This document shows positions 45 through 24,448 of a stretch of 64,000 nt of DNA, piece by piece. Source of the stretch: Octadecabacter sp. B2R22 (lineage in GTDB: Bacteria > Pseudomonadota > Alphaproteobacteria > Rhodobacterales > Rhodobacteraceae); NCBI RefSeq assembly GCF_018861045.1, contig NZ_JAHKQJ010000002.1, positions 1 to 64,000 on the forward strand, read 5' to 3'. Position numbers and translations under genes: made by a program. The notes under the pieces are model-generated. The model had not been told where the DNA came from. It did no database searches and worked only from the letters and a program-made list of their open reading frames with translations. The stretch's first letter is position 1, and every line of letters starts with the position of its first letter.

Positions 45-391
45 GCTGTTGTAGCGAATGTCAGCTCTGAGCCCTAAGTCCCCAATGCTGCGGCACGCAT
101 CAATGTCCGGTCTGGGGTCTTTCCAAAAATGACTCGGGAAATGACGGCCCAAAGCGATCATCGGACGGCGCTGCAGCGAAGGCCAGCTAATAGCCCATTT
201 TTCCAAATTTCAACTCACACCTAATGTCTATTCCGTGGAATTTTTTAGAATGGTACCAAAGCATCCAGCTCCTAACAGACATTCAGCGAATTTCAGTCCA
301 GCCCAACTTTTTAGGTAGGCCCAACTGAGGCGGGTTCTGGTATTGATTGAGATGAGATTTTTAAGACCTGCGCCCAATTCTACCAGGTCAA
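45..391. other. Gene-free stretch
   Basis: About 350 bases lie between the terminator at the left edge and the stop codon of the epimerase gene. No convincing reading frame, promoter pair or RNA gene is visible. It looks like an ordinary spacer that also contains the unmarked 3' end of the TRAP operon; no clear terminator was seen for that operon. Confidence 0.5.
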
Positions 392-1564
392 TCAATCTAA
401 AATTTTTGCAGGTACATCAGGCCACAGCCCAGCTTTTGAGCCTTCGCTCAAAGCTAACACAAGGTGATACATAAGCCGCGTCAGCGTTTCGTCCCACAGG
501 GAGTTACCACCTATATCAAGCTGATTGCAAAAATACGGGCGGTTTGCGAACCAACGTACGAATACTAGGCAGAGTAACCTCTGGGCGCGATCACCGGCGA
601 AAGGCTCACCTGCTTTGTGGAGGGTTGATAAAATCTTGATTGCCTCAGTTTGAGGCCACAAGAGAAACCTGTCTTCCACGGTGAGCCCGCTTGTAGATAC
701 GGCATCAAATACAGCACCTTTCAGATCACCATCTTGCGCAAAACCATGCTTATCGGCAAATGCGATGAGGCGTTCCGCGGCACTTATTAAGCTAGTGTCT
801 TTGGCGAGATCAGCCTCTTCTAGCAAAAGCCACGCCCATTCACATTGATGGCCGACCTCTCGTCGTTGACCAGCGGCCCCCTCAAGTGGTTCCAAGTCGC
901 TTGTAAGAAACTCGGTTATGCTGCCACTGCTTTCATCCATAAAATAGCGCAGACCAACTTTGCGCAGGTCTGCCGCGTACGTGAGCCACATGGCATCCTG
1001 CGTCATGCGGAAAGCCTGTAGGCAGGCCTCATAAAGGTGCATGTGCGGGTTCTGTGCCGGATCTGTGTTTATCCCGCTCTCGTCGTTAAGCAGCAGTCCG
1101 CTCGCAGGGTCAGTCAGGTCCGTTTTTAGAGCTTTCCAACACTCGTTGATCAGGGTGCTGACCTCGATTGACGGTGAAACCTTGTTCCATGTTACAAGCC
1201 CTAGGATGACAAAGGTTTGGTCATAACTGCGCGCGACCTCATCTCCTGAATTGCCTGTCAGGGAACCGTTCCGGTTGACTTTGCAACGATAGAGGCCTGG
1301 TGACTTTCGAAAGTTGTCCAAGAATTTCGCTTGCTTGCGGGCAATCTCAACCAACCCTTGGTCCCCAGATAGTAATGCAACATGCGAAAGAGTAAAAAGC
1401 GTGCGTGCCTGCGAGAGAAGCGTTTTGCCGGAAGTCGTGTCGGGCTTACCCTCGACATCGAGCGCATCAAAAACACCGCCTTGATCGTCTTGAACCCGCG
1501 CCAGCCAGTCCGCAAAGAAACTGCCCCAGAACCACTTTGACCAATATTGTGCATCTTTGATCAT
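392..1564 (-). CDS. AGE-family sugar epimerase/isomerase
   Basis: A 390-residue cytosolic protein of the N-acylglucosamine 2-epimerase (AGE) superfamily, which folds as an alpha6/alpha6 barrel and interconverts N-acylhexosamines, mannose/glucose or related sugars. The length is normal for the family. Typical features are the N-terminal aromatic-rich segment with GGVFDALD, the central RSYDQTF and the late RREVGHQCEWAWLLLE segment, whose His, Glu and Trp fit the AGE active-site region. It starts at an ATG 10 bp after the stop of dctM and is the last gene of the TRAP operon, so it probably acts on the imported sugar or sugar acid. The exact substrate cannot be read from sequence. Confidence 0.8.
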   Translation of the reverse strand: MIKDAQYWSKWFWGSFFADWLARVQDDQGGVFDALDVEGKPDTTSGKTLLSQARTLFTLSHVALLSGDQGLVEIARKQAKFLDNFRKSPGLYRCKVNRNGSLTGNSGDEVARSYDQTFVILGLVTWNKVSPSIEVSTLINECWKALKTDLTDPASGLLLNDESGINTDPAQNPHMHLYEACLQAFRMTQDAMWLTYAADLRKVGLRYFMDESSGSITEFLTSDLEPLEGAAGQRREVGHQCEWAWLLLEEADLAKDTSLISAAERLIAFADKHGFAQDGDLKGAVFDAVSTSGLTVEDRFLLWPQTEAIKILSTLHKAGEPFAGDRAQRLLCLVFVRWFANRPYFCNQLDIGGNSLWDETLTRLMYHLVLALSEGSKAGLWPDVPAKILD

Positions 1565-1574
1565 TGGTAAGGCC

Positions 1575-2885
1575 TTACTTAAACGTCTCAGGCATCAACA
1601 TCTGGGGCAACCAAAGCGCAATGTTTGGGAAGATGATGATCAGCAATAAGATCAATAGCATCGGCAGTAGGATGATGCAGACTTCGCGCATGACCTGCAC
1701 GACGTTCATGCCCCCGATCGAGGCCGAAATCAGCAGGCACAGTCCATAGGGCGGCGTTACCAATCCAAAGGCGAGCGATACAATACCGATAATCGCAAAG
1801 ACAATCGGATGGATTTCCGCTGCAGTCGCGACAGGCAAGAGAACCGTCCCAAGAATGATGATTGTCGGGATCGCATCAATGAACAGACCGAAGAACAAGA
1901 ACAGACCTGCTATCACAAGGGCGGTCCCAAAGGTCCCGAATTCTAGGCTGGTCATCGTGTCCACGACCAACTGCGGCACGTGGTAGAATGCAAGCAACCA
2001 CCCGAACGCCGAAGCCGAACCGATCGCAAAGAGCGAGATCGAAGCGAAGCGGCCCGTGTCATAAAAGATGTGGCCTAGGTCTTTGACGGTGACTGTACGA
2101 TACACAAACATCCCTAGGATCAACGAATAACCTGCCGCAATAATCGCGCTTTCTGTGGGTGTTACGATACCACCGACAATGCCGCCAATTACGAAGATTG
2201 GGGTTAGCATCGCAAGGAACGCGCCCTTAAACGCTGTCCAGATTTCACACAATGTCGGCTTCCCGATAATCGGATAGTCGTAGACTTTTGCATACCCGTA
2301 GACCGTCGCCATTAGTGCAATACCAATCATGATCCCGGGAACCGCACCCGCAAGGAACAGGGCCCCGACGGAAGTTTGCATGACGCCGCCCCAGACGATC
2401 ATTAAAATCGATGGTGGGATAATCACACCCATCACGGACGAACAAGCTGTGATCGCGATTGCAAAGCGGCGGTCGTAACCTTCATTAATCATCGCTGGGA
2501 TTAGGATTTTGCCGCAGCCAGCAGCGTCAGCTGTGGACGACCCGGAAATACCCGCGAACAGCATCGACACCGCGACATTCACATGGCCCAAGCCACCGGG
2601 CATCCAACCGGTAAGCACTCGTGAAAGATCAATAAGTTTGTCAGTAACTTTGCCGGAGTTCATAAGATTTGCAGCTAGCAGGAAGAACGGCACCGCCAGC
2701 AAAATGAATGAATTGTAGGACTGGAACATCCGGTCCAACACGATGAACGGTGTCAGGCGCAATTCAAGCACCACAATCGGCACGGTCGAAATCGCCAGTG
2801 AAAAGGCCACAGGGATGCGCATCGCCACCAAGAAGATGAAGCCGCCCACAAGAATGGCACAGGCGAGGCCAGTTGAGATAATCAT
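1575..2885 (-). CDS. dctM: TRAP transporter large permease (DctM family)
   Basis: A 436-residue, very hydrophobic inner-membrane protein with about 12 transmembrane segments, the normal size for the 12-TM TRAP subunit that carries the Na+-coupled transport channel. DctM hallmarks include the AGISGSSTADAAG loop and the TPTESA motif near residue 245. The start codon overlaps the stop of the small-permease gene (ATGA), which indicates translational coupling. It works with the small permease and the periplasmic binding protein encoded upstream. The linked AGE epimerase suggests a sugar-acid substrate, but this is inference. Confidence 0.92.
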   Translation of the reverse strand: MIISTGLACAILVGGFIFLVAMRIPVAFSLAISTVPIVVLELRLTPFIVLDRMFQSYNSFILLAVPFFLLAANLMNSGKVTDKLIDLSRVLTGWMPGGLGHVNVAVSMLFAGISGSSTADAAGCGKILIPAMINEGYDRRFAIAITACSSVMGVIIPPSILMIVWGGVMQTSVGALFLAGAVPGIMIGIALMATVYGYAKVYDYPIIGKPTLCEIWTAFKGAFLAMLTPIFVIGGIVGGIVTPTESAIIAAGYSLILGMFVYRTVTVKDLGHIFYDTGRFASISLFAIGSASAFGWLLAFYHVPQLVVDTMTSLEFGTFGTALVIAGLFLFFGLFIDAIPTIIILGTVLLPVATAAEIHPIVFAIIGIVSLAFGLVTPPYGLCLLISASIGGMNVVQVMREVCIILLPMLLILLLIIIFPNIALWLPQMLMPETFK

Positions 2886-4794: not shown

Positions 4795-4823
4795 TTGCCA
4801 CAATCCCCGACTCCCCCTATACG
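4795..4823 (+). promoter_or_regulatory. Promoter of the rpsJ-rplC-rplD-rplW unit
   Basis: TTGCCA, a 17-bp C-rich spacer and TATACG lie 126 bp upstream of rpsJ. The same layout occurs before rplB, rpmC, rplO and rpsM, which supports it. The leader after it contains an imperfect hairpin around 4887-4917 (arms GACGA/TCGTC and TGCCG/CGGCA) that could take part in ribosomal-protein autoregulation. Confidence 0.75.
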
Positions 4824-4948
4824 GCCCCAATCCAAGTCGGGTGCGCGCTGCGTGCCCCTTTTTTCTTGGACTATAAGACGCGACGAGGGGTGCCGATGAG
4901 CGGCATTCGTCCAATCCGTTAACATCCCAAAGACAAGGGATATGCATC

Positions 4949-5260
4949 ATGGCAGCTAGCCAGAATATTCGCATCCGTCTGAAGGCTTTTGATTACCGTG
5001 TGCTGGACGCATCCACACAGGAAATCGTAAACACAGCCAAGCGCACAGGCGCATCGGTTCGCGGTCCAATTCCGCTTCCGAACAAGATCGAAAAGTTCAC
5101 AGTTCTTCGTGGACCGCACATCGACAAAAAATCTCGTGATCAATTCGAAATCCGCACGCACAAGCGTCTGCTGGATATCGTCGACCCAACACCACAGACT
5201 GTGGACGCGCTGATGAAGCTCGACCTCGCTGCTGGCGTTGACGTCGAGATCAAAGTTTAA
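4949..5260 (+). CDS. rpsJ: Small ribosomal subunit protein uS10
   Basis: A 103-residue S10, full length, with the conserved [14 protein letters not shown] start and the [20 protein letters not shown] block (GPHIDKKSR carries the exposed loop that contacts 16S rRNA). Besides its role in the 30S head, S10 pairs with NusB in transcription antitermination. It opens the first ribosomal unit of the window, 12 bp before rplC. Confidence 0.97.
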
Positions 5261-5272
5261 GGAGCGCTGCAT

Positions 5273-6094
5273 ATGTTACGTTCCGGTGTAATCGCGAAAA
5301 AGGTTGGCATGACCCGCCTTTTCCAAGAAGACGGTCGTCAGATTCCTGTAACCGTTCTTCAACTCGAAAACCTGCAGGTTGTGGCACAGCGCACCACTGA
5401 AAAGGACGGCTACTCTGCTGTTCAGCTCGGTGCGGGTACTGCCAAAGCCAAACGCACATCCGCACCTATGCGCGGTCACTTCGCCAAAGCTGGCGTTGAA
5501 CCAAAGCGCAAAGTTGCTGAATTCCGCGTTGCAGAAGAAAACCTCATCCCTGTCGGGGAAGAGATCATCGCTTCTCACTACTTCGAAGGCCAATTCGTTG
5601 ACGTATCCGGTACGTCCATCGGTAAAGGTTTCGCTGGTGCGATGAAGCGTTGGAACTTTGGCGGTCTGCGTGCGACACACGGTGTGTCCATCTCTCACCG
5701 TTCCCACGGTTCCACAGGTCAGTGTCAGGATCCTGGTAAGGTTTTCAAAGGCAAGAAAATGGCTGGTCACATGGGTGCCGCCAAGATCACAACTCAGAAC
5801 CTTGTTGTCGTTAAGACAGACACGGATCGTGGTTTGATCATGGTTAAAGGCGCCGTTCCTGGCTCCAAAGGCAACTGGGTCACAATTAAGGATGCGGTTA
5901 AGAAGCCACAGTCCGACAACGTGATCTTCCCAGCAGCATTGGCATCCGCCGCGAAAGAAGCCGAGAAATTGGCAGAAGCCGCAGCCGCAGAAGCCGCAGC
6001 CGCAGAAGAAGCAGCAGCAGCTGCAGCCGCAGAAGCCGAACAGGCAGCCGCGGACGCAGTAGAAGCAGATGGGGGTTCCTCCGATGAAAGCTGA
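5273..6094 (+). CDS. rplC: Large ribosomal subunit protein uL3 with acidic-alanine tail
   Basis: L3 of 273 residues, one of the first proteins to assemble on 23S rRNA near the peptidyl transferase centre. The core (about residues 1-215) is conserved, including [15 protein letters not shown] and the [22 protein letters not shown]-type region around the methylated glutamine seen in E. coli. Residues about 220-273 form a tail of Ala and Glu with almost no other residue types. Bacterial L3 usually ends near 210; tails of this kind are seen in alphaproteobacteria. The codons run on without frameshift and the stop overlaps rplD by 11 bp. AAGGAG lies 7 nt before the ATG. Confidence 0.96.
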
Positions 6095-6701
6095 AGCAAT
6101 CAAACTTGATGGCAAAGCCGCAGGTTCCGTCGACTTGAACGACGAAATCTTTGGTCTTGAGCCACGTGTGGACATCCTTCACCGTGTGGTCCGCTGGCAG
6201 CGCAACAACGCGCAGGCTGGCACACACAAGGTGAAAACACGGTCCGAAGTTAAGTACTCCACAAAGAAGATCTATCGTCAGAAAGGTACTGGCGGCGCAC
6301 GTCACGGTGCACGTTCTGCTCCGATCTTCCGCGGTGGTGGTATCTACAAAGGTCCTACGCCACGCAGCCACGGCCACGAGCTGACCAAGAAGTTCCGCAA
6401 ATTGGGTCTTCGCCACGCGTTGTCTGCGAAAGCAGCAGCAGGTGAATTGGTTATCGTGGACACAGTTGACATGAAGGACGCGAAAACTTCTGCATTGGCC
6501 AAACAGGTCGGCGCATTGGGTTGGAAGCGTACACTCGTGATCGACGCAGCCGTGAACGAAAACTTCGCCGTTGCCGCGCGCAACATCACTTCCATTGACG
6601 TGCTCCCATCCATGGGCGCAAACGTCTACGACATCCTGAAGTCCGATACACTCGTGTTGACGAAAGCAGGCGTCGAAGCTCTGGAGGCTCGTTTGTCATG
6701 A
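6084..6701 (+). CDS. rplD: Large ribosomal subunit protein uL4
   Basis: A 205-residue L4. Its long loop, with [18 protein letters not shown] near residues 60-77, lines the peptide exit tunnel. I start it at the ATG at 6084 (MKAEAIKL); the frame is open five codons further left, but GGGGG at about 6070-6074 is placed for the ATG at 6084. It overlaps rplC by 11 bp and its stop overlaps the start of rplW (ATGA), so translation is likely coupled. In gammaproteobacteria L4 represses its own operon; whether this happens here is unknown. Confidence 0.96.
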
Positions 6702-6994
6702 ACGCTAAGGCAGAACACTACGATGTGATCCGCAAGCCGATCATCACTGAGAAAGCAACAATGGCGTCTGAAAACAACGCCGTCGTTTTCGAAGTGCATA
6801 TCGATGCAAACAAACCAATGATCAAAGAAGCTGTTGAAAGCCTCTTTGGTGTAAAGGTTAAAGCGGTCAACACGACGATCACTAAAGGTAAAGTAAAGCG
6901 TTTCCGCGGCCAGCTTGGTACGCGCAAAGACGTTAAGAAAGCCTATGTGACGCTCGAAGAAGGCAACACAATCGACGTGAGCACAGGCCTGTAA
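6698..6994 (+). CDS. rplW: Large ribosomal subunit protein uL23
   Basis: A 98-residue L23, which sits at the tunnel exit and docks trigger factor and [16 protein letters not shown] near the N-terminus is diagnostic. This is the intact copy. Its last 25 codons and stop (6917-6994) recur twice downstream at 7552-7629 and 8707-8784 with almost only synonymous changes, each followed by a terminator. In most bacteria rplB follows directly; here it is 3.1 kb away. Confidence 0.97.
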
Positions 6995-7023
6995 GGCACC
7001 GCTCCATCGATTGAAGATAGATA

Positions 7024-7054
7024 GGGCCCCTGCAGATATGCGGGGGCCCTTTTT
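7024..7054 (+). terminator. Terminator after rplW
   Basis: A 10-bp GC-rich stem (GGGCCCCTGC / GCGGGGGCCC, one G-T pair) with a 6-nt loop is followed by TTTTT, 30 nt after the rplW stop. It ends the first ribosomal unit. Confidence 0.9.
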
Positions 7055-7090
7055 CATGTCGTGGCCCGTCTTCGAGCAGCCAGACGAGCA

Positions 7091-7122
7091 AAAGCCCGGC
7101 CTGTTTTTACAGACCGGGCTTT
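7091..7122 (-). terminator. Terminator-like hairpin, probably for the small minus-strand ORF
   Basis: AAAGCCCGG / CCGGGCTTT is extended by CTGT / ACAG with one mismatch and a TTTT loop. The minus strand runs on with T, so it suits the leftward small ORF ending at 7197. Confidence 0.6.
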
Positions 7123-7196
7123 GGCGTCCCCAACGTTCTTTGGTCGTGTGCTCGCTTTAAACGTTGCACTGCCATACCCCAAACATGGCGCGCTGT

Positions 7197-7379
7197 TTAG
7201 GCGACGTCTGCAAGGTCAGAAAAGATATTGAAGAGCCGATCAAGCGTGCCATCGCGCCCACGTCGCGAGCAGAATGCCAGAGCGGTCCGGTTGGAACGAT
7301 GCGCGCGACGTTTCTTCCGCAATTCGTTCAATGCGGTTATGCGGCCGTTGCGTGCAGTGTTGATCATTTTCGTGTCCAT
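7197..7379 (-). CDS. Small basic protein of unknown function
   Basis: A 60-residue, Arg/Lys-rich reading frame with no family I recognise. Support for a real gene: the ATG at 7379 has GGGAGAA at ideal distance, a hairpin terminator lies downstream on the same strand, and it fills the otherwise empty stretch between two copies of the 3' end of rplW. The frame is open further left of this start (to 7562) but without a ribosome-binding site. No signal peptide or membrane segment. It could be a nucleic-acid-binding peptide; that is only inferred from charge. It may also be chance. Confidence 0.42.
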   Translation of the reverse strand: MDTKMINTARNGRITALNELRKKRRAHRSNRTALAFCSRRGRDGTLDRLFNIFSDLADVA

Positions 7380-7551
7380 TTTCGTTCTCCCAAGGTTTTT
7401 TGCCCCTAACCCTGAAATGAAATTAACCGTGATTATCGACGAGGTCTCGCGGCCAACGGCATAGGAACACGGCAACTTGGGCTGTTTCAGCTGCCCAAAC
7501 GGATAGGTCACATGACCCACGGAGGTAAGAAACTGGCTCTGCCGCCAGCTC

Positions 7552-7629
7552 GGCACACGCAAAGACGTGAAGAAAGCCTATGTGACGCTCGAAGAAGGCA
7601 ACACAATCGACGTAAGCACGGGCCTGTAA
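7552..7629 (+). repeat. Second copy of the 3' end of rplW (truncated pseudogene)
   Basis: 26 codons (25 residues plus stop) encode exactly the C-terminus of L23 but differ from rplW at five positions, all synonymous third bases (GGT/GGC, ACG/ACA, GTT/GTG, GTG/GTA, ACA/ACG). Similarity fades just upstream, near 7544, so the 5' three quarters of the gene are absent and no start codon is available. A terminator follows, as after the intact gene. The synonymous-only pattern means this copy diverged while part of a working rplW, so it is not a recent local duplication. Confidence 0.88.
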
Positions 7630-7656
7630 AGCGCCTCACTTACGGACGAAATGAGA

Positions 7657-7686
7657 GGGCCCTCGCGAAAGCGGGGGCCTATTTTT
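7657..7686 (+). terminator. Terminator after the second rplW 3' copy
   Basis: A stem of ten pairs with a GAAA loop, then ATTTTT, 28 nt after the copied stop codon, the same spacing as at the real gene. Confidence 0.85.
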
Positions 7687-7923
7687 GCGATTCGCGTCAA
7701 GCAATCACTCGGCATTCGTGATCAGTTCCTAAAATGGCATGGCATTGTTTCGATGCTGGCGTCTGAAAACCCACGTTTGCCCCGCAAAGTTAGACTTTTA
7801 GACAAAAACGCGGATTTTTTCCCAGTATCGGCTACAAAACGAGTAAGTTAATAACTTGTTAAGGACGCCAGCTGTTGGGGAGCGGCGGTAATATTAATAG
7901 TTTGCGTAGTTTCCGCGCGACGA

Positions 7924-8628
7924 ATGAAGGACGGTAAATTGACTTATACACTTACCTCAAAATCACTGAAGGCTGTGGCTGCCGCTGCCTTGCTGACACT
8001 TGCGACGGCCCCCGCGTCGTCGGCCGCAAGCTTGAAATTTGAAAGCTGGGCGAGCGGTTACGAAACCGTTGACGTCACAGCGCCATCCTACAATGGCGCT
8101 GCAGGTGGCTTCGTGATGAACGATGTCGACACCTCGGACAGCTTTGTCGTGTTTTGCCTCGATATCCTCGGTGTGATCTACAGCAATGTCACCTATGACT
8201 ACACGACCACGGCCGCGCCGTTTTCAAATTCTCAGTCCCCGCTGAATATGACGGGCCTGCAGAACCTGTTTGACACCGGTTACTCCAACGCACTGGCGAG
8301 CTCTACGACGTCTGCCGCGTTTCAGGTTGCTCTGTGGAATACGGTTTACGACACCGATTGGGATGTGAATGGCGGTACGTTCTCACAAGACGATGACGGC
8401 GCTGTAAAAGACATGGCAAACGAATTTCTTGCAGCGGCCAACGGGTACACCGGGCCAAGCACGTGGACGTTGTCTTTCTTGGAAGGCGAAAATACTGATC
8501 CGAACATCAGACGCAGTCAGAACCTCGTGACGGCCGCGCCTTCACCGGTGCCACTGCCTGCAACAGGCCTGATGCTGGTCGCTGCAATCGGTGGTCTGGC
8601 CATGACACGCCGCCGTAAGACAGCATAA
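7924..8628 (+). CDS. VPLPA-CTERM secreted protein
   Basis: A 234-residue protein with an N-terminal signal peptide (KAVAAAALLTLATAPASSA) and a C-terminal VPLPA-CTERM sorting tail: VPLPA, a hydrophobic helix of about 15 residues, and RRRK. Such tails are cut and attached by an exosortase system; no exosortase is in this window. The middle is rich in Asp, Thr and Ser, has two Cys and looks like a beta-sandwich surface protein. An ATG is at 7924, but AAGGACGG at 7927-7934 fits a TTG start at 7939 better. It lies between the second and third rplW 3' copies and has its own terminator. Confidence 0.8.
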   Translation: MKDGKLTYTLTSKSLKAVAAAALLTLATAPASSAASLKFESWASGYETVDVTAPSYNGAAGGFVMNDVDTSDSFVVFCLDILGVIYSNVTYDYTTTAAPFSNSQSPLNMTGLQNLFDTGYSNALASSTTSAAFQVALWNTVYDTDWDVNGGTFSQDDDGAVKDMANEFLAAANGYTGPSTWTLSFLEGENTDPNIRRSQNLVTAAPSPVPLPATGLMLVAAIGGLAMTRRRKTA

Positions 8629-8660
8629 TCGCCGCACTTAGGCGTTGAGGCGAATTTTAG

Positions 8661-8689
8661 GGCCGTCCCATTTGTGGGGCGGCTTCTTT
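8661..8689 (+). terminator. Terminator of the first VPLPA-CTERM gene
   Basis: A 9-bp stem (GCCGTCCCA / TGGGGCGGC with G-T) and TTTG loop, then a broken T-run. The terminator after the second VPLPA-CTERM gene has nearly the same stem. Confidence 0.7.
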
Positions 8690-8706
8690 CGTTGGGTCGT
8701 TAACCC

Positions 8707-8784
8707 GGCACGCGTAAAGACGTATAGAAAGCCTATGTAACGCTCGAAGAAGGCAACACAATCGACGTATCCACTGGCCTGTAA
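8707..8784 (+). repeat. Third copy of the 3' end of rplW (decayed pseudogene)
   Basis: The same 26 codons again, with nine base differences from rplW. All are synonymous, including a serine AGC to TCC change that needs two substitutions, except one AAG to TAG that puts a stop after the sixth codon. This copy therefore spent a long time under selection as a coding end, then began to decay. Nothing upstream resembles the rest of rplW. Confidence 0.87.
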
Positions 8785-8814
8785 GGGTTAGGATTTACGA
8801 TTGAGAATTAGGAA

Positions 8815-8845
8815 GGCCCCGCAGTGTGAACTGCGGGGTCTTTTT
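8815..8845 (+). terminator. Terminator after the third rplW 3' copy
   Basis: An 11-bp stem (GGCCCCGCAGT / ACTGCGGGGTC) with GTGA loop and TTTTT, 30 nt after the copied stop. All three rplW ends keep the stop-to-terminator spacing. Confidence 0.88.
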
Positions 8846-8849
8846 GACT

Positions 8850-9152
8850 TTAGGTGGGGCAGACGTAGGCATCACCCAGTGCGATAGAGCCGTCTAACGA
8901 CGACTGAGTGTTTGAAAGTACAAACGCATTTCCACCACGCGCCGCAGTTTCATTTCGCAGCTTATTCAACGCGCTGCTAACGTCATCGGTAACAGTCATG
9001 CCCATGAGTTCGGTTCCCGATACTGGACCTAAGAACTGACATCGTTCTGTCATTTGAGGTGTGATCTGTCTGACGAGTTGCGCCTCTGGCGTAAGTTCAG
9101 CGCTACAAGCAGCTAAACCTGAACAAGCTAGCAATAAAATAAGTCGATTCAT
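8850..9152 (-). CDS. Small lipoprotein, DUF4156-like
   Basis: A 100-residue lipoprotein. The signal peptide ends in a lipobox (LAAC, Cys near residue 16), so the mature protein should be anchored in the cell envelope. The body has the pattern of DUF4156 proteins: an early Cys and GPVSG, then LRNETAARGGNAFVLSN and a late Cys. The ATG has AAAAGGA at good spacing. Function unknown. It sits head-to-head with the HNH-like gene, in the gap between rplW and rplB. Confidence 0.7.
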   Translation of the reverse strand: MNRLILLLACSGLAACSAELTPEAQLVRQITPQMTERCQFLGPVSGTELMGMTVTDDVSSALNKLRNETAARGGNAFVLSNTQSSLDGSIALGDAYVCPT

Positions 9153-9219
9153 GTCATTCCTTTTCTCTACGGGTTAAAGTGAACACATCGCGATTATGCT
9201 AACAATCCCAAAAGGTTCT

Positions 9220-9954
9220 ATGTTCACCATGCTTGCATTTGCAAAATATGATTCAGATAGATGCTGCCTTTGCGGTAAAAAGGGTCCTTTAACTGGCGAG
9301 CATAAATTCAAAGCGACACAAATAAAGTCCAGTTTTCCAGACGGAGAGTTGCTTTCGATGAACAACCCCGATTGGAAACGCCCCAAATTTGTTTAAGGAT
9401 CAAAATCAAGCAATTTAAAATTCAAGAAAAGTGTTTGTGCTCTTTGCAATAGTAGCCGTACCCAATCGGCGGATAGAGCCTTTGACGAATTTCATTATGC
9501 GAATAGTGCTGACCTTGAGCGAGTGTTGAAAGACCGCGAACAACTTGGAGAGTTAGTTCGGCCTGTTGCGTCTGACAGAGAAAGAGATGTCTTTAGGTAC
9601 TTCGCAAAATTGCTGTGTTGTTTTCTTGCAGAAATAGACGGACCACGACCAAAGGCGGTTGGTGCTTTTGCTGCATCTTTGGCAGAGCAAAACCCTATCT
9701 TGTTGAGTGTGTCTGAGGACCCTGCACTTGCCGAAATTAAGCAAAGGGCCATTGGGACGGGATGGGTGGCGCATGGCGGTCTTTGGCTCACATTTGACAA
9801 GTCAAAGCGTTTCGCAGAGAAAATTGGGTCTCGGCTTACGGTTGGACATGTTCGCTACGAGTATTGGGTGCAATTGAACAAGGTCCCCCAACTGGAGCTA
9901 CTTTTATTCCAACGAGCATTCTTAGAGCGCGCTAAGTTGGGTATCATTGAATAG
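9220..9954 (+). pseudogene. HNH-like nuclease gene broken by one in-frame stop
   Basis: One reading frame is open from 9196 to 9954 except for a single TAA at 9394-9396. The N-terminal part has CCLCGKKGPLTGEH and the part after the stop has CALCNSSRTQSADRAFDEF: two Cys-x2-Cys knuckles and a His between them, as in zinc-ribbon HNH endonucleases. The rest (to about residue 245) has no motif I know. I favour the ATG at 9220, which has AAAAGG upstream; an ATG at 9196 is also in frame. Base composition is AT-richer than the ribosomal genes. Readthrough or a recent nonsense change are both possible; as it stands the product is truncated. Confidence 0.7.
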
Positions 9955-9967
9955 GTGGGGTGAGCCC

Positions 9968-9996
9968 TTGACCCATCCCCCTATCCCCCCTATCAG
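9968..9996 (+). promoter_or_regulatory. Promoter of the rplB-rpsS-rplV-rpsC-rplP unit
   Basis: TTGACC, 17-bp spacer catccccctatcccccc, TATCAG. It starts 14 bp after the stop of the HNH-like pseudogene and lies 134 bp before rplB. Confidence 0.75.
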
Positions 9997-10009
9997 ACCC
10001 CATCGGCAC

Positions 10010-10036
10010 AGCCCCAGATTCGTCTGGGGCTTTGTT
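10010..10036 (+). promoter_or_regulatory. Hairpin at the very start of the rplB leader
   Basis: AGCCCCAGA-TTCG-TCTGGGGCT, a perfect 9-bp stem with a UUCG tetraloop, then TTGTTGTT. The predicted start of transcription is only about 8 nt before it. It looks like an intrinsic terminator with an interrupted T-run and could be an attenuator, a 5' mRNA stabiliser, or the terminator of the pseudogene upstream. Confidence 0.6.
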
Positions 10037-10129
10037 GTTGTCTGCAAAGACATATCATCGGGCACCTACGGGGGCCTATAAACATCAGGGCCGCATCTGC
10101 GGTCCGCCAAGCAAACGGAAGTAGCAAAC

Positions 10130-10972
10130 ATGGCACTTAAGTCGTATAAGCCGACGACGCCTGGCCAACGTGGGTTGGTGCTGATTGACCGTTCGGAGCT
10201 TTGGAAAGGTCGTCCAGTTAAGTCCCTCACAGAGGGTCTGACGAAATCGGGCGGTCGGAACAACACCGGACGGATCACATCACGTCGTCGTGGTGGTGGG
10301 GCAAAACGCCTTTACCGCATCGTAGATTTCAAACGTAACAAGTTCGACATGGAAGCTGTTGTCGCTCGGATCGAATATGACCCGAACCGGACTGCGTTCA
10401 TCGCACTCGTTCAATACACTGATGGCGAGCAAGCCTACATCATCGCACCACAGCGTTTGGCTGTTGGCGATAAGGTCATTGCTTCTGCTAAGGCAGACAT
10501 CAAGCCGGGCAACGCAATGCCGTTCTCTGGCATGCCAATCGGTACAATCATTCACAACATCGAAATGAAGCCAGGCAAAGGCGGCCAGATCGCCCGTGCA
10601 GCTGGTACTTACGCACAGTTCGTAGGTCGTGACGGTGGTTACGCTCAGATCCGTCTGAGCTCTGGTGAATTGCGCCTCGTGCGTCAGGAATGCATGGCCA
10701 CCGTTGGTGCCGTGTCCAACCCTGACAACTCCAACCAGAACATGGGTAAAGCCGGCCGTATGCGCCACTATGGCAAACGTCCATCCGTTCGTGGTGTCGT
10801 AATGAACCCGGTCGATCACCCACACGGTGGTGGTGAAGGTCGTACGTCTGGTGGTCGTCACCCGGTTACTCCTTGGGGTAAGCCGACGAAGGGCGCCAAG
10901 ACACGTAACAAGAAAAAAGCGTCCAACCGTCTTATCGTTCGGTCCCGGCACGCCAAGAAAAAGGGGCGTTAA
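10130..10972 (+). CDS. rplB: Large ribosomal subunit protein uL2
   Basis: A full-length L2 of 280 residues, the primary 23S rRNA-binding protein needed for subunit joining and peptidyl transfer. The C-terminal loop with [15 protein letters not shown] contains the conserved histidine of this region; the N-terminal [14 protein letters not shown] is typical. It is the first gene of the second ribosomal unit, with a leader of about 125 nt that contains a terminator-like hairpin. rpsS follows after 3 bp. Confidence 0.97.
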
Positions 10973-10975
10973 TAT

Positions 10976-11254
10976 ATGTCTCGTTCTGTATGGAAAGGTC
11001 CATTCGTTGACAGCTACGTGCTTAAGAAAGCCGCAGCCGCCAAAGATTCCGGCCGCAATGACGTTATCAAAATCTGGTCCCGTCGTTCTACAATCTTGCC
11101 TCAGTTCGTTGGTTTGACATTTGGTGTCTACAACGGCCGGAAGCACATCCCTGTATCTATCACCGAAGACATGATTGGTCAGAAGTTTGGTGAGTATTCA
11201 CCAACTCGCACCTATTACGGTCACGCGGCTGATAAAAAAGCGAAGCGGAAATAA
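10976..11254 (+). CDS. rpsS: Small ribosomal subunit protein uS19
   Basis: A 92-residue S19 of standard length; SVWKGPFVD at the N-terminus and GHKLGEF-like [16 protein letters not shown] at the C-terminus are diagnostic. It binds 16S rRNA in the 30S head with S13. Tightly packed between rplB and rplV. Confidence 0.97.
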
Positions 11255-11257
11255 GTC

Positions 11258-11644
11258 ATGAGCAAGGATAAGAATCCCCGCCGCGTGGCAGACGACGAAG
11301 CAATGGCAAAACTGCGCATGCTGAAGACGTCCCCGCAAAAACTGAACCTTCTGGCCGGCATGATCCGCGGCAAATCGGTAGACAAGGCCCTCACGGACCT
11401 GACGTTCTCCAAAAAGCGGATCGCTCTGGATGTGAAGAAATGCCTTCAGTCCGCGATTGCCAATGCTGAGAACAACCACAACCTCGACGTTGATGAACTC
11501 ATCGTTGCTGAGGCTTATGTGGGCAAGAACTTGACGATGAAACGCGGTCGCCCTCGTGCCCGTGGTCGCTTCGGCAAGATCATGAAGCCGTTCGCAGAGC
11601 TGACAATCAAAGTGCGCCAAGTTCAAGCTGAGGAGCAAGCATAA
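11258..11644 (+). CDS. rplV: Large ribosomal subunit protein uL22
   Basis: L22 of 128 residues. The beta-hairpin with [11 protein letters not shown] (about residues 93-104) reaches into the exit tunnel and is where macrolide-resistance changes arise in other bacteria. The N-terminus has a short charged extension typical of alphaproteobacteria. Its stop overlaps the rpsC start by one base (TAATG). Confidence 0.96.
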
Positions 11645-12360
11645 TGGGTAACAAAGTAAATCCTATCGGCATGCGTCTTCAGGTGAACCGTACTTGGGAC
11701 AGCCGCTGGTACGCTGACACCAAAGACTACGGTGACCTTCTTCTTGAAGACTTGAAGATCAAAGCCTTCATCAAAGAAGACTGCAAGCAAGCCGGTGTTA
11801 GCCGCGTTATCATCGAACGTCCGCACAAGAAGTGCCGCGTAACTGTTCACACTGCACGCCCGGGCGTCATCATCGGCAAGAAAGGTGCAGACATCGAAAC
11901 TCTGCGTCAGAAACTTGCGTCCATGACTGACTCCGAGCTGCACCTCAACATCGTTGAAGTGCGCAAGCCTGAGCTTGATGCTCAGCTTGTTGGTGAGAGC
12001 ATTGCACAGCAGCTTGAGCGTCGTGTTTCTTTCCGTCGCGCTATGAAGCGTGCGGTTCAGAACGCAATGCGTATGGGTGCCCTTGGTATTCGTGTGAACC
12101 TTGCTGGCCGTCTTGGCGGTGCAGAGATCGCGCGTACTGAATGGTATCGTGAGGGCCGCGTGCCACTCCACACCCTTCGTGCTGACATCGATTACGCACA
12201 CGTGGAAGCAATGACTGCCTATGGTATCATCGGGATCAAGACTTGGATCTTCAAAGGTGAGATCATGGAGCACGATCCAGCTGCGCGTGACCGTAAACTT
12301 CAAGAGCTTCAGGATGGCCCCGCACCGCGCGGCGCACGTCCTGGTGGCCGTGATCGCTGA
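11644..12360 (+). CDS. rpsC: Small ribosomal subunit protein uS3
   Basis: S3 of 238 residues at the mRNA entry channel. The KH domain GxxG loop is seen as [13 protein letters not shown] (about residues 76-88), followed by the C-terminal domain with [19 protein letters not shown]. The last 15 residues form a basic Pro/Gly/Arg tail. Translationally coupled to rplV. Confidence 0.97.
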
Positions 12361-12372
12361 AAGGATTAAACA

Positions 12373-12786
12373 ATGCTTCAGCCAAAACGCACTAAATTCC
12401 GCAAGATGCACAAAGGCCGCATCAAGGGCGAAGCCAAAGGTGGCTCCGACCTGAACTTCGGCACATTTGGCCTCAAGGCGACCACACCGGAACGTGTGAC
12501 AGCACGTCAGATCGAGGCAGCACGCCGCGCGATGACACGTCACATGAAACGTCAAGGTCGTGTTTGGATCCGCATCTTCCCAGACGTACCTGTCACCTCC
12601 AAGCCTGTCGAAGTTCGTATGGGTAAAGGTAAAGGTTCCGTTGATTATTGGGCATGTAAGGTCAAACCTGGCCGTGTCATGTTCGAAATCGATGGCGTGG
12701 ACGAAAGCGTCGCTCGTGAGGCCCTGCGCCTTGCTGCGATGAAACTGCCTGTGAAAACACGCACAGTGGTTCGCGAAGACTGGTAA
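12373..12786 (+). CDS. rplP: Large ribosomal subunit protein uL16
   Basis: L16 of 137 residues, which organises the A-site region of the 50[17 protein letters not shown] and [17 protein letters not shown] are conserved, the latter next to the arginine that is hydroxylated in some bacteria. It is the last gene of this unit. In the standard S10 operon rpmC follows immediately; here a terminator and 5.1 kb of other genes intervene. Confidence 0.97.
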
Positions 12787-12822
12787 ACCCAATCTTCCCC
12801 ACCGGGATTTGAAACTAACGAA

Positions 12823-12855
12823 AAGCCCTCGTCGAGTATTCGGCGGGGGCTTTTT
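12823..12855 (+). terminator. Terminator after rplP
   Basis: A 12-bp stem (AAGCCCTCGTCG / CGGCGGGGGCTT, some G-T pairs) with a 6-nt loop is followed by a T-run. It closes the second ribosomal unit. Confidence 0.88.
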
Positions 12856-13201
12856 CTTTCGTGTGAACTTCGCCCCTGCGCCCATCTTGCCGGAGTGTCA
12901 CTATGCGAAGAATGTCCGCTATATCAATTAGCCTCGTCTCAGAGAAACAGCTGCTTTTGCCTGCCCCAGATTATCGTTGCTGAAACGTTTATGTAGGTTG
13001 TCATTTCACAGCTCAGCTCTTTGTTGGCGACTTGCGCGCAATCCCTAGTTGATTTCGATCAAATCTATCAGAATTTAATAATGCTATATTTGAATATGTC
13101 TTGGTGAACGGCGAATCTATACCAGCCCACATCGCAACAAGTCATTGACCCTGCGAGTCGGAAAAGCGCCACTCAAGACGCAAATTGATCAGGGAGGAAC
13201 C
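12856..13201. other. Gene-free leader before a VPLPA-CTERM gene
   Basis: About 345 AT-rich bases without a plausible gene. It should contain the promoter of the VPLPA-CTERM gene at 13202, but I could not settle on a -35/-10 pair. AGGGAGGAAC at 13191-13200 is the ribosome-binding site of that gene. Confidence 0.45.
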
Positions 13202-14359
13202 ATGAGAAATATTCTTTTAACGACGGCAATTGTCGGAATGTCGACGGCCATACCGGCCTCGTCCGCAACGCTCGACAGCTGGAACCTAGATAATGTAACT
13301 GTTGGCGCAACCGATGGAACGCCAAGCGCAAGTGTAATTGACAACGGAAGTGGGGCCAGCAGTGGACAGATCGCCTATGCACCACCAGAGGCAATTGCTC
13401 CCGGAATTCAGGTTGTGCAGGAAACCTATACTCAGGGTGGCCCAACCGGCCTAACACTGGACGGATGCGTTATGACGTCTAATCCAGACAACACCTGCAC
13501 TGGTGCATTCCAAAGCGGGAAGCGGATTAAGACGCAAATGACAGGCACAGAACCGATTGATCTGGTATTTGACGTAACCGAAGGCGCGGAATCGAACTAT
13601 CAAGTATTTTATCGCCTTATTAACCAGACCACTCAATCACTGGCGGGTTTCGCTCTTGAATTGGGGTTTGGTGTCGGAAACGATTTTATAGAAGCAACTG
13701 CCGCGGACGGCATTTCTTTTTCGACGGCGTTCCGGGCACAACCAGCTGATGCTGCCGCATCGTCCACAACCCAATTCCCGTTCGGGTTGTTTGGAGATGC
13801 CAGTACCAACGATAACTTTGAGTTAGACGGCTTTTTTGCGGCTGAACGAACAAGCCTAGCTCTTGATCAAGGGCTAACAGAAATCGCAAGTACTGATTTT
13901 GTTGGTCCGTACACAGACCTCTTCCCGTCATGGCTGTCCCAGGAAAACGTTCCAATCGGAGCATTCTGGGACAACGACAATGACCCCCTTACTGATGCGT
14001 TGCTCATGGCGTGGCTGAATGCCGATGGACAATGGGAAATCCGTCGCGATGTTGAGGATTTCGCCGGTGGCATAGCTGGCAGCTTAACCAGTCCCTTGTT
14101 TTTTAACACGTTTGACGAAGTTGTTGCACAGCTGGGGCTAGGATCAAGTCTGTTCGAAGATGACATTGAAGACCTTGCAAACTTGAATGTGAATTTTGCC
14201 ATCAATTTGGCGGGATTTGTGCCAACAGGGTCGTTCACACTGCGTACAACTGCAATGCCAGCGGCAAACATTTCGCCTGTGCCACTGCCAGCAGGTGCAG
14301 TCCTATTGCTGAGCGGTCTTGCTGCATTCGGTTTCGCCGGGCGTCGCAAAACTGCTTGA
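13202..14359 (+). CDS. VPLPA-CTERM secreted protein
   Basis: A 385-residue exported protein with signal peptide (RNILLTTAIVGMSTAIPASSA) and C-terminal sorting tail: SPVPLPAGAVLLLSGLAAFG then RRK. The start at 13202 is chosen for its strong AGGGAGG site; the frame is open 19 codons further left without one. The central part has TYTQGGPTGLTLDGC and many short hydrophobic stretches separated by Asp/Asn, as in beta-rich surface proteins of the choice-of-anchor type, but no named domain is certain. Two Cys near residues 95-105 could form a disulfide. It lies first in the rplP-rpmC gap. Confidence 0.8.
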   Translation: MRNILLTTAIVGMSTAIPASSATLDSWNLDNVTVGATDGTPSASVIDNGSGASSGQIAYAPPEAIAPGIQVVQETYTQGGPTGLTLDGCVMTSNPDNTCTGAFQSGKRIKTQMTGTEPIDLVFDVTEGAESNYQVFYRLINQTTQSLAGFALELGFGVGNDFIEATAADGISFSTAFRAQPADAAASSTTQFPFGLFGDASTNDNFELDGFFAAERTSLALDQGLTEIASTDFVGPYTDLFPSWLSQENVPIGAFWDNDNDPLTDALLMAWLNADGQWEIRRDVEDFAGGIAGSLTSPLFFNTFDEVVAQLGLGSSLFEDDIEDLANLNVNFAINLAGFVPTGSFTLRTTAMPAANISPVPLPAGAVLLLSGLAAFGFAGRRKTA

Positions 14360-14381
14360 TCGAAAACGAAGTTCAGCGATC

Positions 14382-14411
14382 AGGGGCCGTCCGTTCAGGG
14401 CGGCCTCTTTC
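14382..14411 (+). terminator. Terminator of the second VPLPA-CTERM gene
   Basis: An 11-pair stem (AGGGGCCGTCC / GGGCGGCCTCT with G-T pairs) and GTTCA-type loop, then TT. It closely matches the hairpin at 8661. Confidence 0.7.
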
Positions 14412-14648
14412 GTCGTTATTTAGCCATCCAATTTTAGACTATTCAACATCCCTTAACCCGCCCCAAATCCGTGCCATCCCCCCCATTCTTGGTCTGCGCG
14501 ACGCGTATAGAGACATGCAGATATTAACGGAATATAGAGAAACATTGCTTTTTAGGTAATTTTAGGTCATTTTAAATGAATAAAGTCGACCCGTTTTTCT
14601 GCCACTTAAATTTCCTAACTATGTTTCTAATCTAAAAGGATATTCTGC

Positions 14649-15269
14649 ATGACCTTAAAATATTTAGCTGGCGCTGCCGCAGCGATGATTCTGTCAACGT
14701 CTGCCGCCCAAGCCGTTCCAATGCTGTCGTTCGTGATCGACGGCAACACCTACTCTGACCCATTTGCGATCACAAATACCTCAGACGCAGGTGAATCCAT
14801 TGTTGCGTTTGGCATTAACCTGTCGGGTGCCACGGCTGGCGATTATTGTTTTGATACTGTTAACTACTCGCCTTGTAACGACTCTTTGGCGGTGCCTTTT
14901 ACGCCAATTAGCGGCGCGACCGTTTCAAGCTCATCCACGTATGACGGATCAAAAATGCTGGACATCATTTTCAGCTCGTTTTCGTCCGGATCAACCTTTC
15001 TTTTCGACATCGATGTGGACAACGATGCTGGATCGGCCACAGTGTACGGCAACGAGTTGATCGGTGCGACAGCCTATGCTGACTTCTCAGATGGGCAGCG
15101 CCTGCTAGGTGTTTTCGCGGCCGTTAGCGGCAATGCCGACGCCTCTGCGTTTACCTCTACGGGCCTGATTCCGACGCCAGCTGTACCTCTTCCCGCCGGC
15201 TTCCCACTTATTCTTGCGGGGCTCGGCGCGTTGGGCTTTATGAAGCGCCGGAAAAATCTGAACGCCTGA
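14649..15269 (+). CDS. VPLPA-CTERM secreted protein
   Basis: A 206-residue protein with signal peptide ending at AAQA and a C-terminal tail AVPLPAGFPLILAGLGALGF followed by KRRK. The middle holds two Cys (DYCFDTVNYSPCND) and a DIDVDNDAG stretch that resembles Ca-binding acidic loops. AAAGGA lies upstream of the ATG. It is the third exosortase-type substrate in this locus; the three share tail and signal but little sequence in between. The 290-bp spacer before it is AT-rich and should hold its promoter. Confidence 0.8.
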   Translation: MTLKYLAGAAAAMILSTSAAQAVPMLSFVIDGNTYSDPFAITNTSDAGESIVAFGINLSGATAGDYCFDTVNYSPCNDSLAVPFTPISGATVSSSSTYDGSKMLDIIFSSFSSGSTFLFDIDVDNDAGSATVYGNELIGATAYADFSDGQRLLGVFAAVSGNADASAFTSTGLIPTPAVPLPAGFPLILAGLGALGFMKRRKNLNA

Positions 15270-15298
15270 TTTACGATCAGTCGACATTGACGACCATG

Positions 15299-15330
15299 AA
15301 ATGCCCTCGATTACTCGGGGGCATTTTTTA
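15299..15330 (+). terminator. Terminator of the third VPLPA-CTERM gene
   Basis: AAATGCCCTCGA / TCGGGGGCATTT, a 12-pair stem with loop TTAC and a T-run of six. Confidence 0.88.
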
Positions 15331-15386
15331 TTCCACCATAACAGGTGGTCGAAACTTCCCGCCGCCAATCCTAACCGCTAAGCGTT

Positions 15387-16076
15387 TCAACCGCTCGCCC
15401 CCCAGATCCGGGCCATCCCGCCTTCGAAAGCGGCCCATGTCATCGTCGCGGAATTCCCCGCATGGCCTTCGTAATACGACCGCCCGTTGGGCAGCGGCAG
15501 CCCCGCCCAGATACGCGCGAGGTTATGCATGAACTGACGACGACCCATCTCGCCGTGCTGAAACTGCGACAGACCTGCATCTTCTAGTAAGACCACTGCG
15601 AGCGCGTCTTGGACACCCGCCGTGAACTGCGTCTCCGGCCCAAACCCCCGTTCGGCCGCCACACGGCGCAGTGTCGATGGAATGAATTGGTAGCGCCCAA
15701 TCGCGTGGGGCTGGCCAGGCGTCGCTCTGATCCATTGATAAATCTCACCCAAGGTCATCTGCGTAGGCGGTTTCACAGGCCGAATACGTGCCCCGTGTTG
15801 CACGGCGTTGTATCCGGCTGACCCAGCCTCGGCGTTGGCGATAAGGCTTAGCAACCGATCGACGGGGGTCGTGCCCGTGCCGATGATTGCGGCCGTAGGT
15901 GGTGCAATGCGTTCGGGCAGGGGCGCGAAGAACCCGACCTGCGGGTCAGGGGAAAACAAGCTGGCGCGAGTGACTTGGGTGTCTTGTGAAGGGGCGCTGG
16001 GGAACAACGATTGCAATTCTGCACGCGCGCCCCCTGCACAGCACAGCATCACCAAAGCCAACAAAACACGAACCAT
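15387..16076 (-). CDS. Phage lambda-type muramidase, exported
   Basis: A 229-residue protein. Residues 1-20 are a signal peptide (VRVLLALVMLCCAGGARA), then a Pro-rich linker. From about residue 70 a lysozyme-like domain follows, with LLSLIANAEAGSAGYNAV (catalytic Glu expected in NAEAG) and PHAIGRYQFIP, the pattern of lambda endolysin-type transglycosylases (COG4678-like). It should cleave peptidoglycan glycan strands in the periplasm. The ATG at 16076 has AAGGGG upstream; a GTG three codons earlier is less likely. It is a single minus-strand gene in the rplP-rpmC gap, converging with a VPLPA-CTERM gene. Domesticated phage origin is possible. Confidence 0.75.
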   Translation of the reverse strand: MVRVLLALVMLCCAGGARAELQSLFPSAPSQDTQVTRASLFSPDPQVGFFAPLPERIAPPTAAIIGTGTTPVDRLLSLIANAEAGSAGYNAVQHGARIRPVKPPTQMTLGEIYQWIRATPGQPHAIGRYQFIPSTLRRVAAERGFGPETQFTAGVQDALAVVLLEDAGLSQFQHGEMGRRQFMHNLARIWAGLPLPNGRSYYEGHAGNSATMTWAAFEGGMARIWGASG

Positions 16077-16152
16077 CGCAAGCACCCCTTCTGAGATCAG
16101 GGCGCTTATGCAGGGTTAATCGTTTACGACAGGTTTCACCCCGTCCGACGAA

Positions 16153-16761
16153 TTATTCCCATTTGTAATTAAAGCTTACGGAAATCCGGTCGTCCTCGGA
16201 CATGTTCATCGGGACCTCGTGGCGCAGCCAGCTTTCCCACAGCAAGACGTCGCCTACGACGGGACGCACGTAAACGAACTGCTTTAGCTCGTCGCGGCAG
16301 CCCTTCTTGCGCGAAGGGGCGGCCATCATCATCTGCGCGCGTGGGTCTTCCAACTTGAGCGCGGAGGCACCTTCGGGCATCTTCACGTATGTCGTGCCGG
16401 AAATGACGGAGTGTGGATGGATGTGAGAGGTGTGAATGCCGCCCTCAGGCAGAATGTTGATCCAGAGGTCTTCCAGCACCAGCTTGCGATCGTCCAATTC
16501 AAATTCAAGGTCCGCAGCAAAGGTTGCGACGTGCTGATCCAGTGCCGCCACGATGTCCGCAAAAATCGGAAACCGCCACGGCAGGTCCGTCAGGGACGCA
16601 TAGGAGGTGTAGCCAGGGAAATCATTGGCCTCACACCAATCCTGCCCAGCTTCATCATCTTCAGCGATGGAATAGCAGGAGTTTTCAAGTTCATCCGCAT
16701 CAATTGGGCCAAGCTTGGCTTGATACAGGCGGGTGGCGAAGAGGGAGCGGATGGTGCCCAT
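16153..16761 (-). CDS. 2OG-Fe(II) oxygenase family protein (TIGR02466-like)
   Basis: A 202-residue protein of the 2OG-FeII_Oxy_5 type. The double-stranded beta-helix core is visible from about residue 90: WINILPEGGIHTSHIHPHSVISGTTYV supplies the metal-binding histidines (written here in parts: IHTSHIHPHS then SGTTYV), and LLWESWLRHEVPMN supplies the distal His and a 2-oxoglutarate-binding segment. Expected reaction: hydroxylation of an unknown substrate with O2 and 2-oxoglutarate. It starts at ATG 16761 with GGAG upstream. Ribosomal oxygenases exist, so the position beside ribosomal genes is noted, but nothing shows a ribosomal target. Confidence 0.75.
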   Translation of the reverse strand: MGTIRSLFATRLYQAKLGPIDADELENSCYSIAEDDEAGQDWCEANDFPGYTSYASLTDLPWRFPIFADIVAALDQHVATFAADLEFELDDRKLVLEDLWINILPEGGIHTSHIHPHSVISGTTYVKMPEGASALKLEDPRAQMMMAAPSRKKGCRDELKQFVYVRPVVGDVLLWESWLRHEVPMNMSEDDRISVSFNYKWE

Positions 16762-16819
16762 GGTCTGTCTCCTGACAAAGTTTGATTTGGCTAGCGTTCC
16801 TAGCTAACTTCATAAAAGA

Positions 16820-16848
16820 TTGAACAGATTAAGCGACTCCCAAATATA
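16820..16848 (+). promoter_or_regulatory. Possible promoter of the PD-(D/E)XK-like gene
   Basis: TTGAAC, a 17-bp spacer and AATATA, 18 bp before the TTG start. It is AT-rich and unlike the C-rich ribosomal promoters. Confidence 0.35.
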
Positions 16849-16865
16849 AACATTGGAACAGAGAA

Positions 16866-17735: not shown

Positions 17736-17750
17736 CCGTTGCCTACCCCC

Positions 17751-17779
17751 TTGCCACACCCCCATCCCTCCCCTATACG
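17751..17779 (+). promoter_or_regulatory. Promoter of the rpmC-rpmD unit
   Basis: TTGCCA, 17-bp spacer cacccccatccctcccc, TATACG: almost the same sequence as the rpsJ promoter, including the preceding CCCC. It lies 113 bp before rpmC. Confidence 0.78.
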
Positions 17780-17891
17780 GCCAGCTTCTAACCCACTCCA
17801 TCGGAGAATCGGGTCACGTGGCGTGTGCGCTCCTTAAGGAAAACACACAAAATCACGGCCCGCCGATGATGTTGACAAAAGGAGTCGTCCG

Positions 17892-22204: not shown

Positions 22205-22302
22205 CGTTGGTGCGAACTGCTCTCTGAGCAGGCAATTTGATCCATGTCAGAGACGGTGAATTGATCATGTGCCACTACACTTGGGAAACTGAGGGACATC
22301 AC

Positions 22303-23163: not shown

Positions 23164-23230
23164 CGCGCGTTGACAACGGCGCGCGTCTGGCACGAAAGTC
23201 CGCAAGACTTTCCGCATAAGGACGCGCGCC

Positions 23231-24442: not shown

Positions 24443-24448
24443 TGAGCA

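Follow-up and report, generated by a model that had tools for sequence, protein, structure and literature searches.

Why should the last codons of rplW be found three times in succession ahead of rplB? The question is raised by the window, the stretch of 64,000 nucleotides of Octadecabacter sp. B2R22 that was analysed here, in which rplW and rplB stand 3135 nt apart; the other gaps measured between adjacent ribosomal genes of the window are 12 nt or less in five of five cases. The initial annotation had described three copies of the end of rplW (25 codons and the stop), each with a strong terminator. All three were found at those positions (Table 1), and the terminator hairpins start 27-28 nt past each stop. 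A recount of the differences agrees as well: copies 1 and 2 differ at 5 of 78 sites, all five synonymous, and copies 1 and 3 at 9 of 78, of which eight are synonymous and one changes AAG to TAG. Given a nonsynonymous expectation of 76% for random single changes, five silent changes out of five have a probability of 0.0009 (copy 2), and at most one nonsynonymous change out of nine has a probability of 0.00009 (copy 3). Divergence that is silent almost throughout is thus improbable under free decay, as had been argued. Homology begins at about 7538 (codon 69) in copy 2, which is further left than in copy 3, where it begins at 8707. On the right, the repetition ends about 90 nt past the stop, and the sequences further downstream differ.

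The rplB side of the interval has a conserved block of its own, about 185 nt long, which holds the L2-Alphaproteobacteria leader; an Rfam search of 4800-13200 gave nothing else above the gathering score. Beyond copy 3, at 9196-9954, lie two plus-strand ORFs, neither with a Pfam match. The first resembles an HNH protein by eye (CxxC...GEH start) and stops early, and the two may be remnants of a single gene.

Table 1. Features between rplW and rplB (positions in the window).
Feature	Position	Strand	Basis
Live rplW gene (L23), ending in the newest 3' end; copy 1 = 6917-6994	6698..6994	+	Pfam Ribosomal_L23, E 2.5e-33
Terminator 3' of the live rplW end	7023..7050	+	Hairpin of -26.1 kcal/mol with T run
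Small putative ORF of 60 codons, first captured unit	7197..7379	-	No Pfam family above cut-off
Copy 2, displaced rplW end (25 codons + stop = 7552-7629)	7538..7629	+	Homology starts ~91 nt before the gene's end
Terminator 3' of copy 2	7657..7680	+	-21.0 kcal/mol
Cargo of the second unit, PEP/VPLPA-CTERM-like C terminus VPLPATGLMLVAAIGGLAMTRRRKTA	7924..8628	+	PEP-CTERM E 0.015, below cut-off
Copy 3, displaced rplW end, judged to be the native end of the genus, one nonsense change	8707..8784	+	Flank matches and tree
Native rplW terminator 3' of copy 3	8812..8843	+	-25.8 kcal/mol
DUF4156 protein with lipoprotein-like start, beyond the native end	8850..9152	-	PF13698, E 1.1e-11
Block preceding rplB	9967..10129	+	Matched in 11/11 genus intervals compared with the window's
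L2-Alphaproteobacteria leader RF03142, inside the block preceding rplB	10060-10127	+	Rfam, E 5.7e-12
rplB (L2), first gene of the next unit	10130..10972	+	Pfam L2 N and C domains

Displaced rplW ends recur across the order. The sample comprised 94 Rhodobacterales loci (80 genome loci, 13 stretches from the genus and the window), of which the 80 were chosen by best match to the window's rplW and not at random, and L151 and L152 come from one genome. In 19 of the 94 the gap between rplW and rplB contains at least one displaced rplW end, and neither the minus-strand control (0/94) nor the reversed-library control (0/94) gave any. The largest array has four ends (L059, the live one and three displaced); the matches in L024, in L058 and at 2632 in G018 are weak. 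Relatives therefore differ in the number of copies, as had been anticipated, and a ribosomal gene end does appear as a serial landing site. Comparison of the 94 loci with themselves (996 kb, E up to 1e-6, spacing 150-8000 nt) returned 27 repeat pairs, in 18 loci, with the live rplW end as the left member, one of which (in L079) is essentially terminator sequence. The remaining seven pairs are five between copies and two unrelated to rplW.

The size of the gap was measurable in 65 of the 80 loci, the other 15 being excluded where rplB was not resolved downstream on the same strand. It ranges from 96 to 5187 nt with a median of 2009, and is at most 200 nt in 6 of the 65 loci and at least 1000 nt in 55. 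A wider scan of the family with a 98-nt query found a match in 209 of 295 genomes and two or more ends in at least five, a lower bound since no more than three candidates were scored per genome.

Not every ribosomal gene end behaves in this way. Among genomes of the genus with an rplW-end match, 5 of 14 hold two or more, while the ends of rplP and rplQ have one match in each genome and no extra copies (0/15 and 0/19). The Fisher P of 0.001 for rplW against these two is indicative, as the genomes are related and both controls share genomes. A screen of 69 ORF ends of the window, which included antisense ORFs and left out rplW and the ends near the window edge, gave no match. Since rplP and rplQ have no extra ends though they also close conserved ribosomal blocks, a purely general process does not explain the choice of site, and these controls together with the ORF ends screened make it unlikely that DNA is captured at conserved operon ends in general.

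Within the genus, the origin of the copies can be followed by comparison with sister genomes. Taken together with its flank, copy 3 is at 91% over 140 nt to the live rplW end of G011 and at 88%, 85% and 83% to displaced ends in G004, G005 and G018; the flank alone directly follows live rplW in G001, G002, G003 and G018 (76-91%). A tree of ends with their flanks contains a native group (support 0.985), whose displaced members are copy 3 of the window, the ends of G004 and G005 and the farther, well-preserved end of G018, and whose live members are the ends of G001, G002, G003, G011, G014 and G018. The live ends of the window, G004 and G005 are placed outside this group in the same tree. The coding part of copy 3 taken alone fits this less neatly, being at 95% to the live end of G004 and at 92% to that of G011. 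Judged by flank and tree, copy 3 is the native rplW end of the genus, and in the cases compared the native end, which lies closer to rplB, is evidently the older one. Recent local duplication, which the initial annotation had set against its own reading, does not hold for copy 3, which clusters with native live ends of sister genomes and not with copy 1. Copy 2 does group with the live copy 1 (support 0.805), so that taken alone it is compatible with a near relative as source or with local duplication.

Two genomes of the genus appear to differ by one step. Positions -89..788 of G004 match 1549..2411 of G018 at 84% over 880 nt, the live end of the former corresponding to the nearer displaced end of the latter, and G018 thus represents the state of G004 with one further unit. 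G001 has stretches in common with both units of G018. In G018 decay is greater in the nearer copy than in the farther one, which counts against the simplest ageing order, and since its live end falls within the native group, a foreign end is not evident there.

A recent case, from Ruegeria, offers a view of the donor side. The live rplW end of L070 is the native one, and the displaced end of L075 matches it at 97% over 134 nt. This displaced end stands behind a MarR-YceI pair (MarR barely above the cut-off). From the first base past its live stop, L075 matches the displaced native end and MarR-YceI of L085 at 75% over 1232 nt, and in L091 MarR-YceI lies directly 3' of live rplW. The rplW body of L075 (218 nt) is at 98.2% to L091, 96.3% to L085 and 95.9% to L070, the three genomes compared. 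These values are suggestive of an entry of donor sequence into L075 through the upstream homologous anchor, the L091-like body, and the captured unit looks like the donor's DNA behind rplW together with the donor's rplW end. Here the host's own 3' end stands displaced behind the incoming module.

The units between ends measure about 0.3-1.6 kb, or about one or two genes, and their content varies. The three displaced ends of L059 separate a 134-codon ORF, a 238-codon ORF, a gene of the desaturase family and a further ORF. By clustering, the desaturase gene ranks first in L069 and L085, second in L046 and L050, and third in L059 and L062 (the Pfam assignment was made on the member from L046). 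The other Pfam families of the cargo are aldose epimerase, DJ-1/PfpI, PAS with guanylate cyclase, FkbM methyltransferase, a Hint domain and a ParE-like protein; 7 of the 16 cargo ORFs scanned with Pfam are without a family. The ParE-like protein is encoded on the minus strand at L102:4369-4776, flanked by two displaced rplW ends. Seventeen units have a plus-strand ORF as their longest. Its stop precedes the copy by 3-13 nt in seven of them, overlaps it in two and is 28-222 nt distant in the remaining eight, counts that are partly non-independent because L046/L050 and L059/L073 have genes in common. With the cargo stop close to the copy in 9 of 17 units, the arrangement is more compact than random joints would look.

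The left boundaries of the copies are informative on the joint. The well-resolved ones lie at -135 (L041), about -89 (G018), -75 (L075) and about -72 (L059). They thus scatter over about 65 nt among the well-preserved copies, which alone were used since the change-point estimate from global alignment overfitted decayed ones, and one fixed crossover point was not found. In a right-anchored test, upstream similarity exceeds the null (60 draws) in 12 of 31 copies: it reaches -89 to -99 in four (the second copy of L065, L085, G004 and the farther copy of G018) and -105 or beyond in eight; upstream of the anchor, the remaining 19 stay within the null. Part of the scatter could be an artefact of core arms that vary in similarity. 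At the joint itself, microhomology was sought by eye in L075 against L085, L073, L069 and L091, and the position of the joint was not fixable. The direct repeats at rplW are 54-225 nt long in the self-comparison. Terminator-like hairpins (-10 kcal/mol or stronger) follow 17 of the 31 displaced ends, with a weaker one or none found at the other 14, in a scan of 85 nt that did not pick up G001's live hairpin.

Searches for a mobile element were negative in the material covered. A profile and BLAST from 30 integrases of the genus (an unbenchmarked search) detected no integrase in the 94 loci, nor was one found among the 16 Pfam-scanned cargo ORFs. In the genome-wide search most contigs with an integrase, among the matches listed, are not assignable to the rplW contig. 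Compared with phages, the rplW tail gave 16 records (best E 0.2), and with plasmids 25, none of the 20 listed being Rhodobacterales by name; in both sets the matches are other bacteria's rplW or weak. A tblastn-confirmed scan of viral contigs yielded no relative of the window's rplW, with pattern-level matches in 16 contigs. As for routes of DNA entry, GTA_TIM is present in 15 of 19 genomes of the genus, that of the window included, and the window's genome encodes a competence-family (PF03772) protein, a family also matched in 10 of 14 control genomes.

The reading preferred here, with a probability of roughly 0.58, is that the rplW 3' end in Rhodobacterales would be a serial capture site, operating through homology in the S10 genes and an illegitimate second joint. 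As far as the sequence comparisons go, new DNA enters at the live rplW 3' end, brings a new end with it and shifts the old end toward rplB. Repeated capture with a replacement end, the core of the earlier interpretation, is borne out by the genus tree and by the comparisons of G004 with G018 and of L075 with L070 and L085. Its likeness to integrative elements at tRNA genes finds no support here: an integrase was detected in none of the 94 loci, the units are small and the boundaries scatter over about 65 nt. Homologous recombination with foreign ribosomal DNA, which had been mentioned as an alternative, is the better fit. Several results count against the preferred reading, namely the use of rplW but not of rplP or rplQ, the compact spacing of cargo stop and copy, the decay order and native-group live end of G018, the identical coding ends of L041 and the grouping of copy 2 with the live end.

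The events can be pictured as follows. DNA of a relative, which may enter by gene transfer agent or transformation, would arrive with an rplW end, its terminator and the gene that lies behind rplW in the donor. On the left the incoming DNA would pair by homology with the S10 genes of the recipient, and on the right an illegitimate joint would form inside the recipient's rplW, within about the last 135 nt. We infer this route, with homology on one side and an illegitimate joint on the other, from the copies and their boundaries. The product would be an rplW rebuilt with the donor end, followed by the captured gene and then by the recipient's displaced end with its native terminator. Further rounds would shift older ends toward rplB, where they decay. 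Existing displaced ends may supply homology on the right-hand side, so that later units would be added by ordinary recombination and would spread with their joint unchanged. A founding event at rplW followed by such homology would also explain why rplW is used and rplP and rplQ are not. With the strong rplW terminator on one side and rplB's own conserved leader on the other, DNA between them should cost little.

The strongest rival, itself rather unlikely, has the rplW end serve as attB for the insertion of small circles that carry their own rplW end, in the manner of phages and ICEs, whose sites include tRNA and ribosomal protein genes. The site-specific recombinase would either be encoded elsewhere or have belonged to elements that have since lost it. 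This rival would account for the use of the rplW end alone among the gene ends tested, for the similarity that extends just to -89 to -99 in four copies, as a core arm might give, and for the short spacing between gene and copy in 9 of 17 plus-strand units. Against it stand the failure to find an integrase in the 94 loci and the scanned cargo, the disagreement of the boundaries (with similarity beyond -104 in 8 of 31 copies and none above the null in 19) and the phage, plasmid and viral-contig searches. A precedent is offered by streptococcal ICEs, which, according to excerpts of the source, insert at the 3' ends of rplL, rpsI and rpmG (PMC4701971). They are alike in occupying the 3' end of an essential ribosomal gene and leaving its product unchanged. 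By contrast, in the same excerpts they carry an integrase, conjugation genes and direct repeats of 12-54 bp (PMC4701971), the rplW units being one or two genes long with no integrase found and with the longer repeats given above.

Copying of the rplW end and its terminator behind other genes as a ready-made terminator, with no displacement, would suit the hairpins of -10 kcal/mol or stronger on 17 displaced ends and the several cargo stops within a few bases of a copy. It is highly improbable, however, given that the live end of G004 is colinear with a displaced end of G018, that the displaced copies of the window, G004, G005 and G018 keep native flanks and that hairpins are weaker or not found at 14 of 31 ends. 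Least probable of all is local tandem duplication of the rplW end and downstream DNA followed by divergence, which would fit the tandem copies on one strand, the grouping of copy 2 with the live end and the identity of live and displaced ends over the last 69 coding nt in L041, but not the stop of the repetition about 90 nt downstream, copy 3 and its flank being closer to G011's live end than they are to copy 1, or the all but silent differences in the window, and which the self-comparison and the tree rule out as the origin of copy 3.

Serial capture at rplW has partial parallels in known systems. Phage 21 and e14 at icd of E. coli supply a replacement 3' end and leave the old end beyond the element. 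They are prophages with an integrase, unlike the rplW units, and we know of no serial array for them at icd. In the cassette arrays of integrons, units enter at one end, are often single genes and often have short spacing to a shared end sequence. The rplW arrays differ in that the 94 loci yielded no integrase and the shared sequence is the end of a coding gene. Tentatively, and with less confidence than is placed in capture as such, the arrays might be described as an integron-like cassette system without an integrase, in which rplW ends would provide homology on both sides and units packaged by GTA or taken up would be added singly, always in the newest position, to the rplW of any relative by ordinary recombination.

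Serial displacement of gene 3' ends is described for the T6SS effector loci of Vibrio, Rhs loci being cited as well (PMC5361080, from excerpts of the article). In these excerpts the authors propose homology-facilitated illegitimate recombination and liken the order to integrons (PMC5361080). The upstream homology anchor, the illegitimate downstream joint and the old 3' parts arrayed behind are alike. In the Vibrio loci, as excerpted, homology is anchored in genes of the secretion system itself and it is immunity genes that are retained (PMC5361080), whereas the rplW arrays have an essential ribosomal anchor, an unchanged product, unrelated cargo and retained ends that decay. Displacement of 3' ends is therefore known in itself, and rplW as its site is not described in the literature searched: among the matches listed from open-licence PubMed Central full texts, no paper treats rplW as such a capture site.

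The S10 operon is divided in several of the genomes. In G003 a single contig carries both rplW and rplB, about 3.66 Mb from each other, with an rplW end upstream of rplB, and orphan rplW ends upstream of rplB are also found in L179, L180 and L185. Among the separated rplB stretches, 4 of 12 have an orphan end and eight have none (L175-L178, L181-L184). The S10 operon is split or inverted between rplW and rplB in L179, L180, L185, L152 and L069, an orphan rplW end remaining ahead of rplB in the first four; in L069 rplB is inverted relative to rplW. In L175 (G019:C5:4500-24000), 17 kb separate rplW from rplB, a very long ORF (L026) lies behind rplW and no extra rplW end was found.

Other parts of the ribosomal region of the window are also interrupted. 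Several non-ribosomal ORFs open the ribosomal operon behind rplP (12787-18000), among them another VPLPA-type gene at 13145-14359; extra copies of the rplP end were found in none of the 15 matching genus genomes. Apparently non-ribosomal ORFs, one with a start like that of threonine dehydratase by eye, also occur within the ribosomal gene region at 22237-25096.

If capture at rplW is true, a core and supposedly vertical gene has its 3' end swapped repeatedly between lineages, and rplW ends would be unsafe as vertical markers. The displaced ends would be fossils of each event, from which the order and the source of the captures can be read. The S10 operon of many Rhodobacterales would be opened at a hotspot, where accessory genes arrive one by one with no mobile element to carry them and a conserved ribosomal block serves as the homology anchor for gene capture.
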